DNA of 25,966 bases, taken from a virus. Position numbers and translations under genes: made by a program. Under the pieces are notes generated by a model. It ran no database searches and was not told the DNA's origin. It saw only the letters and a list, made by a program, of their open reading frames with translations. The stretch is taken from IMG/VR virus record IMGVR_UViG_3300035703_003863, positions 1 through 25,966 of that record; one strand, 5' to 3'. Shown piece by piece: positions 9,666 to 25,965 of this stretch (position 1 is its first letter; the number at the start of each line of letters is the position of its first letter).

Positions 9666-9693
9666 ATTTGGCATTATTGTCGTGGAGGGTCTT

Positions 9694-10221
9694 ATGAATT
9701 TATTTGTGATTGGTAATCAAAAAGAAAGCGCTCAAGCCCTTGATGACCGTCGTTTGGTAAAAATGACGGTTGAAACTTTACAGTTGTTTGCATATGCAAT
9801 GAACAACTTGGAAATCCCAGACTCGTTTTATCCAATTTCAAAAGAAACTGGCCTGCCATATAAATCAAAAAACTCCCACACTAAACATCCGGTAACCTTG
9901 TGGTTACAAAAATCTGTCGGAAACTTTGACTGGATGTTTATTTATCTGCAAGAAATGATGGCAGAGTATGAGCATCGCTTTAATAAGCCTTCGTTTGTTG
10001 ATCCTATTAACTTAGAGCGCATCCAATCTGCTAGAAACTTGTGGCCAGTCGGTGAGCTTACGCCTTTTGCAAACTGTTCACTGCACCAAGATATCGAAGA
10101 TACTCTAGTTGCCTATAAGAAAACACTAATGGACAAGTGGAAAAAAGGCGAACTTTCTACTAAGACTATTCCACGGTGGACTAGGCGGGAGCGACCAAAC
10201 TTTGAGCTCACATCATACTGA
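9694..10221 (+). CDS. Conserved phage protein of unknown function (175 aa)
   Basis: The ATG at 9694 is chosen over the GTG at 9682 because GGAGGG (9684-9689) is its SD. The protein starts MNLFVIGNQKESAQALDDRR and then has LVKMTVETLQL, a KHPVTLWLQKS segment, and ends with AYKKTLMDKWKK...IPRWTRRERPNF. I recognise this overall pattern (N-terminal 'NIFVLD..P...A...D.HVVKM..E..Q', central 'HPC.LW', C-terminal 'AYR..Y...K....W..R..P.W') from a family that recurs in T4-like and other phages without an established function. Automated pipelines sometimes give it DNA-glycosylase-type names, which I cannot support from the residues. It sits between nrdA and primase and overlaps the primase start by 20 nt, suggesting a DNA-metabolism role. 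Confidence 0.85.
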   Translation: MNLFVIGNQKESAQALDDRRLVKMTVETLQLFAYAMNNLEIPDSFYPISKETGLPYKSKNSHTKHPVTLWLQKSVGNFDWMFIYLQEMMAEYEHRFNKPSFVDPINLERIQSARNLWPVGELTPFANCSLHQDIEDTLVAYKKTLMDKWKKGELSTKTIPRWTRRERPNFELTSY

Positions 10222-12099: not shown

Positions 12100-13605
12100 A
12101 TGTCAGGTTTTAGTCCACTTAATCAGCAAGAGCTTCAAATGATCGCTCAGAAGCTAGAGAGCCTTAACAAGTCTTTCGCTGCTGGCTTCCCTGGTCTCAA
12201 CAACGCAGGAAGAACTGGTACTTCTGCAATTGCTATTGATAGCCTTGAGCCTACCGTGCGTTCATTGACTCTTGAGGACGAAGACTTCCTCTTGACCAAA
12301 AACGTTCAAACTCTCAAAGCTACACAAACTACATATAGCTATGTAGTTAAGACAGCAATCCGTAGCGGTATCGACACATGGGGCGTCGAAACATTCCTTC
12401 CACAAGAAGATGTTTCACAATATATGCGCGTTGCTGAAGTCCTCCGCGTTCAAGGTATCCGTAAAACGATTACCCACCTTGCACAAACCGTTAACTCTGC
12501 TGGCGGCTATATGCTCGACCTCGAAGCAGAAAACGACAAGAACGCAGCTATGTCAATGGCTGAAGGTCTTGAGCGTGCAATGTATATCGGTGGCGATATG
12601 TATCTCGACCAAAACGGTGAGATTGACAGCACACTTGCTGCTAACCCCAACGCTCCTATGCGTATGCCACGCGGTATCCAAGCTCAAATCCGTGAAGGTA
12701 ACAAGTCTGCTCGCGGTATCATCGGCGACTTCGTTGGCTACGGTAACAATCGTGTAACTTTCGCTGATGCTAAGGGCCAAGTCCTTACCAGGGGCCAAGT
12801 TGACAAGCTTGTTTCTGCAGTTCGCGAAAACCGTGGTCGTATCGTTGAAGCTCACTGTACAGTTGACCAGCTCGTTCACTTCCGTGCTACATTCTTCCCA
12901 TTCGAGCGCGGTGATCTTGGCGCAGCTTACGCTATTCGCGGTGCAAACGTTGAAGCTGAAGCTAAGTCTGGTTTCCCACTCCAAACAGTTGTTGGTACAG
13001 TTGACTTCATTCCTTCTGTATTCAAATATACTCGCGCTTATCCAGAGCCTGTAATGAGCTCCAGCGGTACAATTGCAACTCCTGCTATTTCAGGAACTGC
13101 TCAAGTTGCTGGTAATACATCATTCAAAGCTGGCGATGTTGTTAAGTATGTTGTCCAAGCTGTTAATATCCACGGAATTTCAATGGCTTCGGCTGAAGTT
13201 TCTGTGACTATCGCTGCTGATGGTAACAAAGTTCAACTTACAATTGGTGCTGTTCCTGGCGCTGAAGAGTTCGCTCTATTCCGCACTGCGGTTGGTGGCG
13301 CTTCTGGTACATGGAAAGCTTGCGGTCGCGTAATCGCTGCTCGCGCTGGTGCAACTACTGCGGTTGATGCACAAGCTATCCTTCCTGGCCTCGACAGCGT
13401 TGTATTCCTACCAAAAGCTCAGTTCCGTGCTAAGCTTGCGGTTCTTGGCGAAATGCTTTCAAAGATGAAACTTGGCCTTCGCGGTCTTGTTGAAGAAACT
13501 CTTTATGTAAGCTACCTCGCAGTTGTTCTTGAGCATGTACGTCATCATGGCCTCCTTGATAACGTCTACCATGAGCTCAATGACGAGACCTACGGAAGCG
13601 TCTGA
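12100..13605 (+). CDS. Probable major capsid protein with inserted Ig/FN3-like domain (501 aa)
   Basis: The ATG at 12100 is used because AAGAGGTG (12086-12093) is the SD; the GTG at 12091 is inside the SD and an ATG at 12096 is out of frame. Residues 1-60 are helical and polar, followed by an alpha/beta body (to about 318) with features of phage shell proteins: ETFLPQEDVSQYMRVAEVLR, a long helix LEAENDKNAAMSMAEGLERAM, and TVDFIPSVFKYTRAYPEP. Residues about 322-435 look like an inserted Ig/fibronectin-type beta domain (AGDVVKYVVQAVNIHGIS, then AEEFALFRTAVGG), before a helical C-terminus. Codon use is strongly biased (CTT/CTC, CGT/CGC, AAG, AAC), unlike neighbours, and the gene has a large promoter region and its own terminator. 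The capsid assignment is inferred from these; an HK97 fold is likely but not proven. Confidence 0.82.
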   Translation: MSGFSPLNQQELQMIAQKLESLNKSFAAGFPGLNNAGRTGTSAIAIDSLEPTVRSLTLEDEDFLLTKNVQTLKATQTTYSYVVKTAIRSGIDTWGVETFLPQEDVSQYMRVAEVLRVQGIRKTITHLAQTVNSAGGYMLDLEAENDKNAAMSMAEGLERAMYIGGDMYLDQNGEIDSTLAANPNAPMRMPRGIQAQIREGNKSARGIIGDFVGYGNNRVTFADAKGQVLTRGQVDKLVSAVRENRGRIVEAHCTVDQLVHFRATFFPFERGDLGAAYAIRGANVEAEAKSGFPLQTVVGTVDFIPSVFKYTRAYPEPVMSSSGTIATPAISGTAQVAGNTSFKAGDVVKYVVQAVNIHGISMASAEVSVTIAADGNKVQLTIGAVPGAEEFALFRTAVGGASGTWKACGRVIAARAGATTAVDAQAILPGLDSVVFLPKAQFRAKLAVLGEMLSKMKLGLRGLVEETLYVSYLAVVLEHVRHHGLLDNVYHELNDETYGSV

Positions 13606-13622
13606 TAGGACGCTTTAACAAG

Positions 13623-13648
13623 AAGGCCGGGGAAACCCGGCCTTTTTT
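13623..13648 (+). terminator. Rho-independent terminator after the capsid gene
   Basis: Perfect 9-bp stem AAGGCCGGG/CCCGGCCTT with GAAA loop (13623-13644) and TTTTGTTG. The GAAA tetraloop matches that of the 3861 terminator. It could also stop minus-strand transcription from the gene ending at 13654, though the tail on that side is weaker. Confidence 0.92.
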
Positions 13649-13653
13649 GTTGT

Positions 13654-13998
13654 CTAAAGTTCCCCAGATAGAAAATCAACAATAAATTTATATTTTTTTC
13701 TTTTATCTTTAGATGAAGACAATAATTTAATTAAATCATCAAGACTATCCACAGCTTTTGTTCTATAGTAGTCATTTGTTTCGGCTGCAACCATCACAAC
13801 CCAGTGTGACAATTCCGCTTCGCTTAGAATGTAATCGTCCCAACGACATTTTTGTAAATGTTTATCGGTAAACAATTGTGCGTAATATATTTGCGTTGTA
13901 TGAAAATTTGGAACTACTTTCTTGTATATACGAATATCTCTATCGATAGATAACAATAAGTAATTATTTTTGTTATTTTTTATTTGTTGTGTTTCCAT
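13654..13998 (-). CDS. Unknown protein (114 aa)
   Basis: The frame extends up to 14106 with a GTG, but that would overlap the divergent plus-strand gene; the ATG at 13998 (METQQIKNNKNNYLLLSID) is the better start. No strong SD is seen at either. The product is mixed: YLLLSIDRDIRIYKKVVPNF, a WDDYILSEAELSHWVVMVAAE segment that may be a helix pair, and a basic C-terminal stretch SSSKDKRKKYKF. AT-rich codon use differs from the capsid gene next door. It converges on the capsid terminator. I do not recognise the family. Confidence 0.7.
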   Translation of the reverse strand: METQQIKNNKNNYLLLSIDRDIRIYKKVVPNFHTTQIYYAQLFTDKHLQKCRWDDYILSEAELSHWVVMVAAETNDYYRTKAVDSLDDLIKLLSSSKDKRKKYKFIVDFLSGEL

Positions 13999-14010
13999 AA
14001 CAATGTTATA

Positions 14011-14020
14011 TTTGTATAAA
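14011..14020 (+). promoter_or_regulatory. Candidate promoter, TTGTATAAA, in a divergent gap
   Basis: The 38-nt gap between 13998 (minus) and 14037 (plus) holds TATATTTGTATAAA. TGTATAA is at 14013-14019, about 18 nt before the plus-strand ATG, so the leader would be very short. The opposite strand reads TTTTTATACAAATATAAC, which could serve the minus gene. Confidence 0.35.
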
Positions 14021-14036
14021 AAATGGTAGACAACGT

Positions 14037-14270
14037 ATGGAATTTCAGGGAAAAGAACATAAAAAAAGAGTACGAGCCGCACTTCGCCAATATAACGAAG
14101 AGGCACGTAAACCCGTTTATTGTATTGATATGATTACTGGCGAAATAGAATCGTTTGAAAGCAAATATGACGCCGAAAAGGCAGGTTATAAACGTTATAG
14201 AATAGACCGTTGTTTAAATGGGGAACGGCGGAGCTACAAAGGTAGAATGTGGTATCAAGGCTCTCTTTGA
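14037..14270 (+). CDS. Solitary NUMOD1/IENR1-like DNA-binding protein (77 aa)
   Basis: After a basic N-terminus (residues 1-24, GKEHKKRVRAALRQ), residues 25-73 fit the modular DNA-binding repeat found beside GIY-YIG and HNH homing endonucleases: KPVYCIDMITGEIESFES, a short helix DAEKAGY, then RYRIDRCLNGERRSYKGRMWY, which matches the usual 'I..cLnGk.k..kG..W' ending. No nuclease domain is attached, so it is either a remnant of a homing endonuclease or a small regulator using the same fold. There is no clear SD at the ATG. Its 3' end overlaps the convergent minus-strand gene by 16 nt. The domain call comes from the motif pattern; the biological role is unknown. Confidence 0.75.
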   Translation: MEFQGKEHKKRVRAALRQYNEEARKPVYCIDMITGEIESFESKYDAEKAGYKRYRIDRCLNGERRSYKGRMWYQGSL

Positions 14271-22862: not shown

Positions 22863-24782
22863 CTAGAATAAAATAGTTGCACTACCCGATTTTAACATTT
22901 TTTCTTCGTCTTCTTGGTTCTTTTTCTTAATATCTACATTGTATTCAGCAGCGTAATGCATACGCAACGCTTCTTGCATGCCTTCTACAGTAGTAAAATT
23001 AGGCTTTTTAGTATAATCAAACTGATCGGCTTGAGAAGCCTGAATAACTGATGCGTTATTTGAAATAAACGGATCAATTGCATAGCGCAGGGCATCTGGA
23101 CCATGAGTAAAATCATCGTCGGCGAATCGGGAATAATCATATCCCATTGAGCCCTTAGCGTAGGTCCAATTTTCCATGCATTTAATCAGGAACAAATTCT
23201 TTGGATCATCTAAAATGATGAAATGAGCCTGTTGTTTCATGGCATTCCATAGTTTTGAACGAATCCAAGAAACTCCAGTGTCGATTGTTAGTGGTTTTTC
23301 GCCTCTAGCGGGCATGTTCATACTACCCGCAACGGATGTTGATGACTTATCGGCTGTATCGGGGCATAGTAGGTCAAACCCATATTTTAGGTATACGTTC
23401 TCTTTTACAAACGCCAGCCAGTCTGGATTGGCATAACCCGTTGAATTTTCTGTATGTAAAACAAGTATTTTATCGTCAGACTTTCTGTAGGCAATGAGAA
23501 CTGCAACAGCTGGGTCTATAAATCCAAAATCAACACCACAATGCAATCGCCAGCTATTTGCTCTTAGTTCTCTAACTAATTCATCTTTTGTAATATCGCG
23601 TATATTCCCAAACCGATCTGTTGGGTACGCGTTAAAAGCGAAAAACCAAGACTCTTGTAAAGATTTAACGTGTATATTACGATTAAATTTATTGAAAACG
23701 ATACCCGAAGACTCTGGCTTTAAGTTAAGAATCTGTGCATTAATTTTATCAGGATCTCCTGCATTAAGCAGAGTGTTCTTGACAAACCCTAAATCGCGCA
23801 ACATTTTAGATTTAGATTGTTGTTTTACTGATTTTGTTCTACAAATAGCAAAAACTGGACAGGTTTTACACCCTTCGTAGGCCAAAATAGATGAATAAAC
23901 CATTTTAGTTTCGGGATTAAGAGCATTGTAAGCCTGGTCTGGTAGGACTTCCAGCGTCTCAGGATGTAAGTGCAACATACTTTGTGGCAATTCGGGCTTA
24001 TGACGCTCTGGTGGACAGACTTGCATCCAATCTACAATAGACCATTTGTGCAGTCTGATGCCCGAATTTGGCATGTCTGCTTCGTCAATTTTCTGTTGGA
24101 TTGGTCCCGAACCAGATTTACGGGATGAAAGATAAATAAAAATAGGAGGCTTGCCTGATCGATCTGGGTCGGCAATAAAAGTTGCTTCGGAAAGAATATC
24201 TTTATCAATAAGGTCTAGCTCATCAAATATCAAGCAAGATGCACGTTGCGCGTTTGCCGACTTTTTAGTTGACACAACAACCTGTAGTTTACTGTATCCA
24301 ACTGGCCGATGAGGCGAAGGTGGTAACCTATTAAGTTCTTTAATACGTTTGCTGTCGGTTTTAGCAAAATTAGAAATAATTGGAAGAGCTAGATATTTAT
24401 CTAGGTAGCGAATTGCTGCTAGAGATTGGTCCAAAATAGCTGCCATGTGGACTATGTCTCGAGCAAAATGCACCATTAATAAAAATTCGATAATAGAAGA
24501 TGCTAATGTTTTTGCTGAGTTACGACTTGCCGCTACAACAAACGTAGTTCTGTTAGGGTCGCCGTCTTTGGCTGCCGAATAGACATCCCAAATAAAATCC
24601 ATTGGATTAGAGTTACTATTGTCGTCTACAGTAGAATCTGGCAGATCGATGTCTAAGAACGTTTTAATCCACTGTTTAAGTTGAACTTTACTTTCGCAAA
24701 CAGCAAAAAACTGCTCTTCATACAGCTGGTTTAGCGCTGCATTGAGCTGGTTTTCGTTTGTTAATTGCGATTTTTTGCTCAT
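22863..24782 (-). CDS. terL: Terminase large subunit, ATPase plus nuclease, with a Cys cluster (639 aa)
   Basis: It cuts concatemeric DNA and pumps it into the prohead through the portal. ATPase: Walker A VVAASRNSAKT (82-92, with K91), Walker B CLIFDELD (D187-E188), and the coupling motif IYLSSRKSG. Nuclease (RNase H-like): D418 in CGVDFG, D475 in LLCPDTAD and D563 in THGPDALRY. Length 639 aa is usual. Between the domains lie C256, then C305-K-T-C308 and C314 (CX2CX5C), an unusual cluster that may bind zinc or an iron-sulphur centre. The SD AGGA precedes the ATG; the upstream 2OG gene ends directly at the start. The virion gene and portal follow in the same operon. No split or intein is seen. 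A small terminase subunit is not identified. Confidence 0.95.
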   Translation of the reverse strand: MSKKSQLTNENQLNAALNQLYEEQFFAVCESKVQLKQWIKTFLDIDLPDSTVDDNSNSNPMDFIWDVYSAAKDGDPNRTTFVVAASRNSAKTLASSIIEFLLMVHFARDIVHMAAILDQSLAAIRYLDKYLALPIISNFAKTDSKRIKELNRLPPSPHRPVGYSKLQVVVSTKKSANAQRASCLIFDELDLIDKDILSEATFIADPDRSGKPPIFIYLSSRKSGSGPIQQKIDEADMPNSGIRLHKWSIVDWMQVCPPERHKPELPQSMLHLHPETLEVLPDQAYNALNPETKMVYSSILAYEGCKTCPVFAICRTKSVKQQSKSKMLRDLGFVKNTLLNAGDPDKINAQILNLKPESSGIVFNKFNRNIHVKSLQESWFFAFNAYPTDRFGNIRDITKDELVRELRANSWRLHCGVDFGFIDPAVAVLIAYRKSDDKILVLHTENSTGYANPDWLAFVKENVYLKYGFDLLCPDTADKSSTSVAGSMNMPARGEKPLTIDTGVSWIRSKLWNAMKQQAHFIILDDPKNLFLIKCMENWTYAKGSMGYDYSRFADDDFTHGPDALRYAIDPFISNNASVIQASQADQFDYTKKPNFTTVEGMQEALRMHYAAEYNVDIKKKNQEDEEKMLKSGSATILF

Positions 24783-25439
24783 TTATTTTCCTGTCGAAAA
24801 AAACCATGTGACAATACACATTTTTTGACCTTTAATAACGGGGTGAGCTCTGTGCTCATATGCATAATTAGACGGAAATAGAACAATTGAATTTTTCTTG
24901 GGTTTAATTTTTAAATTAAACTTAGTAAACTCAAGCTCTCCTCCTTCATAATCATCATTTAAATAAATAATACCTGAAACTTTTCTATATAAAAAATCTT
25001 CTCCGCCGTCAACATGGGCTTTATAAAAGCCTCCTTCGTTATATTTTACAACCTGGTAGCCTTCATCTGCACAAATAAAAACTGCATTATCTTTTTGATA
25101 AGACTGAATAGCCTTCTCAAAAACATTAAAAATATAATTATCTAGTAGTTGAAATTTTTTATCATTTTTACTTTGATCTGAAAGAAAAAATATTTCACAC
25201 TGCCTGGATATTGGTTTGTCAAAATGAGCTGCGCCTATTTTACCTTTTCCCCATAAATTACTTGGTATGTTTATAAGATCTTGCATGATTTTATTTAAAA
25301 CGTCTTCCTTTAAGACATACTCAGTGATACATGGACCAAGATTATTTTTTTCAAACGGATTGCCCGTAATACTTGCGGTTTCTTCCTTTTCCTTCAAGGA
25401 GACTACAATATTTTCTGAATTCACAGGCAATTCCTTCAA
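24783..25439 (-). CDS. 2-oxoglutarate/Fe(II)-dependent dioxygenase, prolyl-hydroxylase-like (218 aa)
   Basis: This double-stranded beta-helix oxygenase uses Fe(II) and 2-oxoglutarate to hydroxylate a substrate. Visible: H142-V-D144 in FYKAHVDGG, the strand GIIYLNDDYEGGELEF, VLFPSNYAYEH196R with the second metal His, and GQK206 where the usual Arg or Lys holds 2-oxoglutarate. The pattern matches the P4H/2OG-FeII_Oxy_3 group seen in many phages. Candidate substrates are a virion or host protein, or a modified DNA base. The start is uncertain: the TTG at 25439 gives the full frame but overlaps the upstream gene by 89 nt and has no clear SD, and the core fold only begins near residue 33. It ends directly at the terminase ATG, so the two are coupled. 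Confidence 0.88.
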   Translation of the reverse strand: MKELPVNSENIVVSLKEKEETASITGNPFEKNNLGPCITEYVLKEDVLNKIMQDLINIPSNLWGKGKIGAAHFDKPISRQCEIFFLSDQSKNDKKFQLLDNYIFNVFEKAIQSYQKDNAVFICADEGYQVVKYNEGGFYKAHVDGGEDFLYRKVSGIIYLNDDYEGGELEFTKFNLKIKPKKNSIVLFPSNYAYEHRAHPVIKGQKMCIVTWFFSTGK

Positions 25440-25965
25440 TGTTACACGTTGTAATTAATATCTTTTTATCATTAAGTGCCAGATAAGGAAAGCTTTCCAC
25501 TGGTTGGTGTTTCATCAATGTATATGCAACATCTTCTGTCTTAGCTTTTGGATTGAGTATCTTGCAAGTAGGGGCTGCGCCTCGACCCATTTCCAAATAT
25601 TTAAATTCGTCAATGTATTCAGGAAATTGGTAACCAAAATCCATCATAATTTCTGTCATATGGAATGGATTTTTAAACCCTAAAATTGCGTGAATACTGT
25701 TTGTAAGATGCTGGATGCTGTGTTTTTTATCAGACATCAATAAGTCGTAGATAGGATGAACAAGCTCTGGTAGTTTTTCGTATAAAAACTCTTCGCGATT
25801 TTTAGCACCAATAATTGATAATCCTGCTTGAGGAAACAAGTAAGCAGTATTAAATTTAGGCCCTTCAATAGCGGCAAACCTAGCTCGAGATTCTAAATTT
25901 TCAGATTTATCTAAACAAATATGACCCACAATTTCAAGAGTTTGGGGCAAATTAATATATCTAGC
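25351..25965 (-). CDS. Edge-truncated protein, possibly in the DNA-hypermodification glycosylase-like group
   Basis: The frame is open to the right edge; the TTG at 25950 is not a convincing start, so the N-terminus is missing. The visible part is helical: NTAYLFPQAGLSIIGAKNREEFLYEKLPELVHPIYDLLM, then HLTNSIHAILGFKNPFHMTEIMMDFGYQFPEYIDEFKYLEMGRGAAPTCKIL. The run 'LGfk.pF...ei..D..y.......f...G.GA' resembles the C-terminal half of phage base-modification proteins (alpha-glutamyl/putrescinyl-thymine pyrophosphorylase and amino acid:DNA transferase groups, which share a helical DNA-glycosylase-like fold with a GPGA-type ending). The end has C-X5-C (ACEFRKYC) and a basic tail. This match is by eye and could be wrong. 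It overlaps the 2OG gene by 89 nt. Confidence 0.6.
   Translation of the reverse strand, partial: ARYINLPQTLEIVGHICLDKSENLESRARFAAIEGPKFNTAYLFPQAGLSIIGAKNREEFLYEKLPELVHPIYDLLMSDKKHSIQHLTNSIHAILGFKNPFHMTEIMMDFGYQFPEYIDEFKYLEMGRGAAPTCKILNPKAKTEDVAYTLMKHQPVESFPYLALNDKKILITTCNIEGIACEFRKYCSLLEGKGRNRKYYGQSV

Follow-up and report, generated by a model that had tools for sequence, protein, structure and literature searches.

The open frame that runs off the right edge of the window encodes, with a probability of about 0.8, the helical (DNA- or base-binding) component of a 5-hydroxymethylpyrimidine DNA kinase acting in a base-hypermodification route, while the 2-oxoglutarate (2OG) oxygenase gene beside it is a passenger. 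The window is the whole stretch of DNA analysed; it is the complete IMG/VR record G000, with a length of 25,966 bp, and covers only part of a larger phage genome. It carries just the truncated helical protein (HEL) and the passenger oxygenase (Table 1); none of the pathway partners lies within it.

Layout of the right edge

About 105 N-terminal residues of HEL are located beyond the contig edge, the full-length protein having about 309 amino acids. An earlier reading of the letters alone (the sequence-only reading) had described a truncated helical protein at this edge with the motifs ILGFKNPF, MMDFGY and EFKYLEMGRGAAP, and all three were found in the frame. The 'GPGA' ending that it also mentioned holds in so far as the family glycine motif exists; however, the motif reads GRGA and is located about three quarters along the protein, not at its end. 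Both glycines of this GxGA motif are invariant across 29 sequences, and the HEL protein of the divergent contig L138 carries GPGA.

The next gene had been recognized correctly as an Fe(II)/2OG dioxygenase directly before terL, its stop codon abutting the TerL ATG at 24782. From the point where the upstream gene ends to residue 51 of the oxygenase frame there is no ATG, GTG or TTG, and hence translation begins inside HEL, at TTG 25439, GTG 25424 or similar (both candidates lie within HEL), or at a rare codon. The overlap of 89 nt given earlier is exact only if the mechanical TTG at 25439 is taken as the start.

Table 1 Features at the right edge of the window
Feature	Position	Strand	Remarks
HEL	25351..25965	minus	Open frame running off the right edge; C-terminal 204 aa of a PF18723 (HMUDK_hel, aGPT-PPlase1) protein
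GRGA, variant of the family GxGA glycine motif	25576..25587	minus	GPGA in most members; alignments A1 and A2
2OG-Fe(II) oxygenase, prolyl-4-hydroxylase-like	24783..25439	minus	PF13640, 6.4e-19; optional neighbour, judged to be outside the pathway
TerL (terminase large subunit)	22863..24782	minus	32% identity to the annotated TerL of Myxococcus phage Mx1

Family and fold of the helical protein

On its own, the HEL fragment matches PF18723 with E = 5e-4 and 19.9 bits. This is below the Pfam gathering cut-off of 25 bits because the fragment lacks about 105 residues. A scan of viral contigs yielded six near relatives in which the gene is whole (307-309 aa). These orthologues, which are 87-97% identical to the window fragment, match PF18723 ('5-hmdU DNA kinase, helical domain') with E = 1.6e-24 to 1.8e-21 and 77-87 bits over model positions 5-273 of 281; for the L002 protein, at 97% identity, E is 1.5e-22 over residues 36-293. 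The full-length versions also match phrog_2396, the family of PaMx11 gp50. In a nine-sequence alignment, all 13 of the family-invariant residues that fall within the fragment were kept, and R45, W60, D63, F71, R76 and D79 are kept in the full-length orthologues as well. By these profile matches, HEL is a member of the PF18723 HMUDK_hel family, and it was this family that the profile search proposed as a check in the sequence-only reading returned for the edge protein.

The AlphaFold model of HEL is nearly all-helical (pLDDT 88.4, pTM 0.87), and its nearest viral models are those of phiRSL1, the SP10 '5-hmdU DNA kinase' (637 aa) and PhiW-14, with E values down to 6e-9; proteins of these phages named 5-hmdU DNA kinase (helical domain) are among the best viral matches. 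The nearest solved structure is PaMx11 gp46, a 5-PmdU (5-phosphomethyl-deoxyuridine) glycinyltransferase (8z2n; probability 0.97), which at E = 0.086 is supportive only. The second was an 8-oxoguanine DNA glycosylase (probability 0.57), and in view of these two matches 'glycosylase-like helical protein', as HEL had been called, is a fair description of the fold. A sequence search of the PDB with the HEL, ADDT-like, flavoprotein and P-loop proteins gave no useful match, and among 20 pattern matches to HEL in GTDB genomes none was confirmed as a relative.

Probable pathway partners in related genomes

A thymidylate synthase (TS) homologue was found within 8 kb of the HEL gene in 71 of 74 distant relatives, as against none of 80 control loci chosen by oxygenase family. 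A pairing of TS with aGPT-PPlase1 has likewise been published for M6-like phages and for pelagiphages (PMC9599517, PMC9476957). The related genomes of the window lineage measure 104-169 kb (G003, 169 kb; G002, 105 kb). The close relatives (L223-L226; G003, G002) have one cluster encoding an ADDT-like protein, a flavoprotein, a P-loop protein and a deaminase, located about 40 kb from HEL in G003 and G002. The ADDT-like protein of these two genomes is homologous to the aGPT-Pplase2 proteins of phages Tonitrus and Wooper (hhalign probability 98.7%), and these actinophage homologues are its main support, the match to Pfam ADDT being 0.002 and below the cut-off. An amino acid:DNA transferase (ADDT, aGPT-PPlase2) is thus encoded in the genomes of relatives, outside the window. 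The flavoprotein is homologous to a protein of the Gordonia/Rhodococcus cassette (Tonitrus, Wooper; tblastn about 1e-24), and its GxGxxG motif is invariant.

The decisive evidence comes from three distant contigs (L227, L228 and L229), located solely via the flavoprotein, which carry ADDT, FAD, kinase, HEL (PF18723) and TS genes contiguously, the FAD protein being of the same family at 30-32% identity. Hence, parts that are dispersed in the window lineage form one cassette elsewhere, and the true partners of HEL are likely to be those encoded some 40 kb away and not the neighbouring oxygenase. The assignment of the helical protein to the phage DNA-hypermodification type in the sequence-only reading is borne out by the PF18723 match and by the TS, transferase and kinase-like partners; the TS homologues and base kinases that were to be sought have counterparts in related genomes, namely a TS homologue and a P-loop kinase-like gene.

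Several other genes were noted in these genomes. G003 encodes a Mom-family protein at 115262-115906 (PF25680, E = 3e-32; in L019, G003:97501-117500), and therefore this 169-kb relative may also modify adenine. On reading translations by eye, an IMP dehydrogenase/GMP reductase-like gene was seen at 67763-68788 in G003 and 73747-74805 in G002, and is missing at window positions 13605-14255. The G003 homologue of the window gene at 9682-10221 has a match to PF03013, a family of pyrimidine dimer DNA glycosylases, over its first 60 aa (E = 1.3e-5); this gene is located beside ribonucleotide reductase-like genes.

The P-loop protein and a possible split kinase

The profile phrog_800 has 511 positions and bears the PHROG label 'terminase small subunit'. 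Its first 210 positions are matched by the P-loop kinases of PaMx11, Sonora, Wooper, Tonitrus, Phelemich and Kozie, and the region near positions 293-470 is matched by PF18723 proteins, which suggests that the two are separable halves of a single enzyme. This is consistent with the SP10 protein of 637 aa, which is named as a 5-hmdU DNA kinase. The profile gives matches in every control genome; the P-loop protein of the lineage (212 aa, in the ADDT/FAD cluster) is the best-scoring one in each record. Its similarity to known 5-hmdU kinases is weak (whole-domain E = 2.7e-5 with Z = 1000; hhalign probability 53-64%), no match was obtained against phage records, and its assignment as a kinase comes mostly from its position in the cluster. 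In Klebsiella phage phi1_175010, a PF18723 protein (L222 2429-3637) is annotated as terminase small subunit, probably because the phrog_800 label covers both P-loop 5-hmdU-kinase-like and PF18723 sequences.

Proposed mechanism and the modified base

The enzymatic steps, partner binding, product and purpose outlined here are proposed from sequences and structure models. A hydroxymethylated pyrimidine would be placed in the phage DNA, and HEL, probably with the separate P-loop kinase encoded some 40 kb away, would phosphorylate its 5-hydroxymethyl group. The amino acid:DNA transferase would then swap the phosphate for an amino acid, probably glycine, which the flavoenzyme would trim; as in phage PaMx11, 5-aminomethyl-deoxyuridine is the probable outcome. 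The modified product may shield the phage DNA from host nucleases. The position of its gene in the terminase operon makes late expression of HEL, ahead of packaging, probable. The scheme draws on the hypermodification pathway chemistry reportedly described by Lee et al. in 2018 and in 2021/2022. Its chemistry is also based on the title of PDB entry 8z2n, the title of Wen et al. 2024 as it is cited in PMC11946847, and PMC6449724.

The only pyrimidine hydroxymethylase found is a TS homologue encoded at 149162-149869 of G003. It was found in a single genome, where its gene is inserted between tail genes, and hence may serve another purpose. At the specificity position (E. coli TS 177) it has the cytosine-type Asp, whereas the alignment of HEL-linked homologues shows 71 Asn, 3 Asp and 1 gap, i.e., Asp in 3 of 74 readable sequences; this Asn/Asp residue is the determinant of uracil versus cytosine selection (PMC8670742, PMC5175136). 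Among solved structures, the G003 enzyme is most similar to T4 dCMP hydroxymethylase and CMP hydroxymethylase. Given an Asp-type hydroxymethylase, the modified base would be either uracil, perhaps via the neighbouring deaminase, or cytosine.

The specificity residue and the structural neighbours together point towards a lineage that hypermodifies cytosine, in which 5-hmdCMP would come from the hydroxymethylase, and 5-hmdC in DNA would be the substrate of the kinase, transferase and flavoenzyme. We consider this unlikely: apart from the isolated occurrence of the hydroxymethylase, the deaminase beside the P-loop gene could convert 5-hmdCMP to 5-hmdUMP, and 5-HMUDK was reported to phosphorylate hmU and not hmC (PMC6457204). 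Slightly more doubtful is the corresponding split hydroxymethylpyrimidine DNA kinase, whose base-binding half in the terminase operon would act on 5-hydroxymethylcytosine to give an amino-acid-hypermodified cytosine just before packaging.

The neighbouring oxygenase

In the sequence-only reading, the oxygenase and the helical protein had been taken as a functional pair. Such a pair could work if the oxygenase hydroxylated DNA thymine to 5-hmdU and HEL acted on the product, comparable to the role thought to be played by a Tet/JBP-like gene in Gordonia and Rhodococcus phages. The two genes are adjacent and overlapping in the window, L002 and L005-L007, and the catalytic residues of the oxygenase are intact, with the HxD motif at 25008-25016, the distal His at 24843-24845 and a downstream Lys conserved. 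Moreover, actinophages carry a Tet/JBP-like gene, ADDT, a kinase and an FAD protein upstream of terL, and the L005 copy of the oxygenase has a weak Tet_JBP score (E = 1.5e-4), though far below the cut-off.

However, the oxygenase gene is missing between HEL and terL in L003, where HEL is 92% identical, and in L138, and only a decayed 198-bp remnant with internal stops is left at this place in L004 (4560-4757; alignment score 129 versus 45 for the best of 50 shuffles). No PF13640 gene was found throughout the L003, L138 and L139 records, two of which are fragments of 33-48 kb; HEL is kept. The L003 genome still has the ADDT/FAD/P-loop cluster, as does L225, which shares its sample of origin with L004. 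When genomes are compared, the identity of the oxygenase is 49-63%, as against 84-97% for HEL and 85-97% for TerL. The window copy does not match Tet_JBP (PF12851), and its nearest structures are the prolyl hydroxylases P4H and PHD2, which are secondary evidence because the model is moderate (pLDDT 71.6, three sequences). The oxygenase has hundreds of relatives in cyanophages. In the flanks of the best 80 family relatives elsewhere, TS, HEL, ADDT or kinase genes were found in none, and this oxygenase is found at none of the 74 distant HEL loci; the Tet/JBP-bearing actinophages, in turn, are without PF18723.

The functional pair was rejected on account of this absence and decay, the fast divergence, the lack of a Tet_JBP match in the window copy and the unlinked relatives, and we give thymine hydroxylation by this enzyme very little credence. 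Judged by these comparisons, the oxygenase is prolyl-hydroxylase-like and not TET/JBP-like, an acquired and dispensable passenger unrelated to hypermodification, and its predicted substrate is more likely a protein. Other 2OG-like proteins were seen by eye elsewhere in G003 and G002.

Placement in the terminase operon

The order terS-like, HEL, terL was found in L002-L007 and L138 and holds down to 54% TerL identity (L003, L138); in L003 and L138, both joints, terS-like/HEL and HEL/terL, are 4-nt overlaps. These three genes constitute the fixed unit. The gene upstream of HEL is labelled terS-like on account of its position, a probable HTH and a weak resemblance to the gene that precedes terL in Myxococcus phage Mx1; no family match was found for it. 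Mx1 (L221, 169.6 kb) has the closest TerL in the phage collection searched (32%); its terS-like gene directly precedes terL, without a helical gene between, and no PF18723 gene was found in it. The placement of HEL inside the terminase operon, and not beside TS as in most distant relatives, is thus unusual.

This conserved order with its short overlaps, together with the location of nearly all other relatives near TS instead, might indicate that HEL left biosynthesis and was recruited as a packaging factor, e.g., a terminase accessory recognising modified DNA, but we judge this to be highly improbable, since the family-invariant residues are all kept, the same genomes retain ADDT, FAD and kinase-like genes, the 169-kb record (G003) has no second PF18723 gene to supply the enzyme, and the modification cassettes of actinophages likewise adjoin terL.

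Comparison with known systems

As the predicted helical kinase component, HEL is comparable with the PF18723 proteins of PaMx11 (gp50), M6/SN1, ViI-like phages and phiW-14, and with the SP10 kinase, to which it is alike in full-length family, fold and invariant residues. It differs from these PF18723 proteins in being only about 19-29% identical, in having GRGA instead of GPGA, and in the position of its gene between terS-like and terL, theirs being beside TS. Unlike the 637-aa 5-hmdU DNA kinase of SP10, HEL is free-standing.

The PaMx11 cassette (gp46-gp51) encodes a PUGT glycinyltransferase, a flavoenzyme, an acetyltransferase, a kinase, HMUDK_hel and TS. The lineage has counterparts of gp46, 47, 49, 50 and 51 in its ADDT, FAD protein, P-loop protein, HEL and TS homologue; unlike in PaMx11, the set is dispersed, the hydroxymethylase is Asp-type and no acetyltransferase was identified. 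The FAD and ADDT proteins are nearer to the actinophage versions than to those of PaMx11, and are homologous to those of the Gordonia/Rhodococcus thymine-hypermodification cassettes (Wooper gp1-5, Tonitrus gp1-8). Like HEL, these cassettes adjoin or lie near the terminase; in contrast to the lineage, they rely on a Tet/JBP-like oxygenase, and the phages lack PF18723. The window oxygenase belongs with the prolyl-4-hydroxylase-like 2OG oxygenases of cyanophages (phrog_61), and an enzyme of this type beside HEL was found in the window lineage only.

Implications

The assignment of HEL to a hypermodification kinase would extend DNA hypermodification of the amino-acid type to an uncultured phage lineage represented by contigs of 104-169 kb; in the phage collection searched, Mx1 alone has a notably related TerL. 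It also calls for caution in pairing genes by adjacency, which can mislead; in this case, the adjacent gene is a passenger and the likely partners are 40 kb off. A pathway of this kind can be scattered around the genome with one component fixed in the packaging operon, and two questions are made testable, namely a possible timing of modification to packaging and a possible activity of the helical/P-loop kinase on cytosine.
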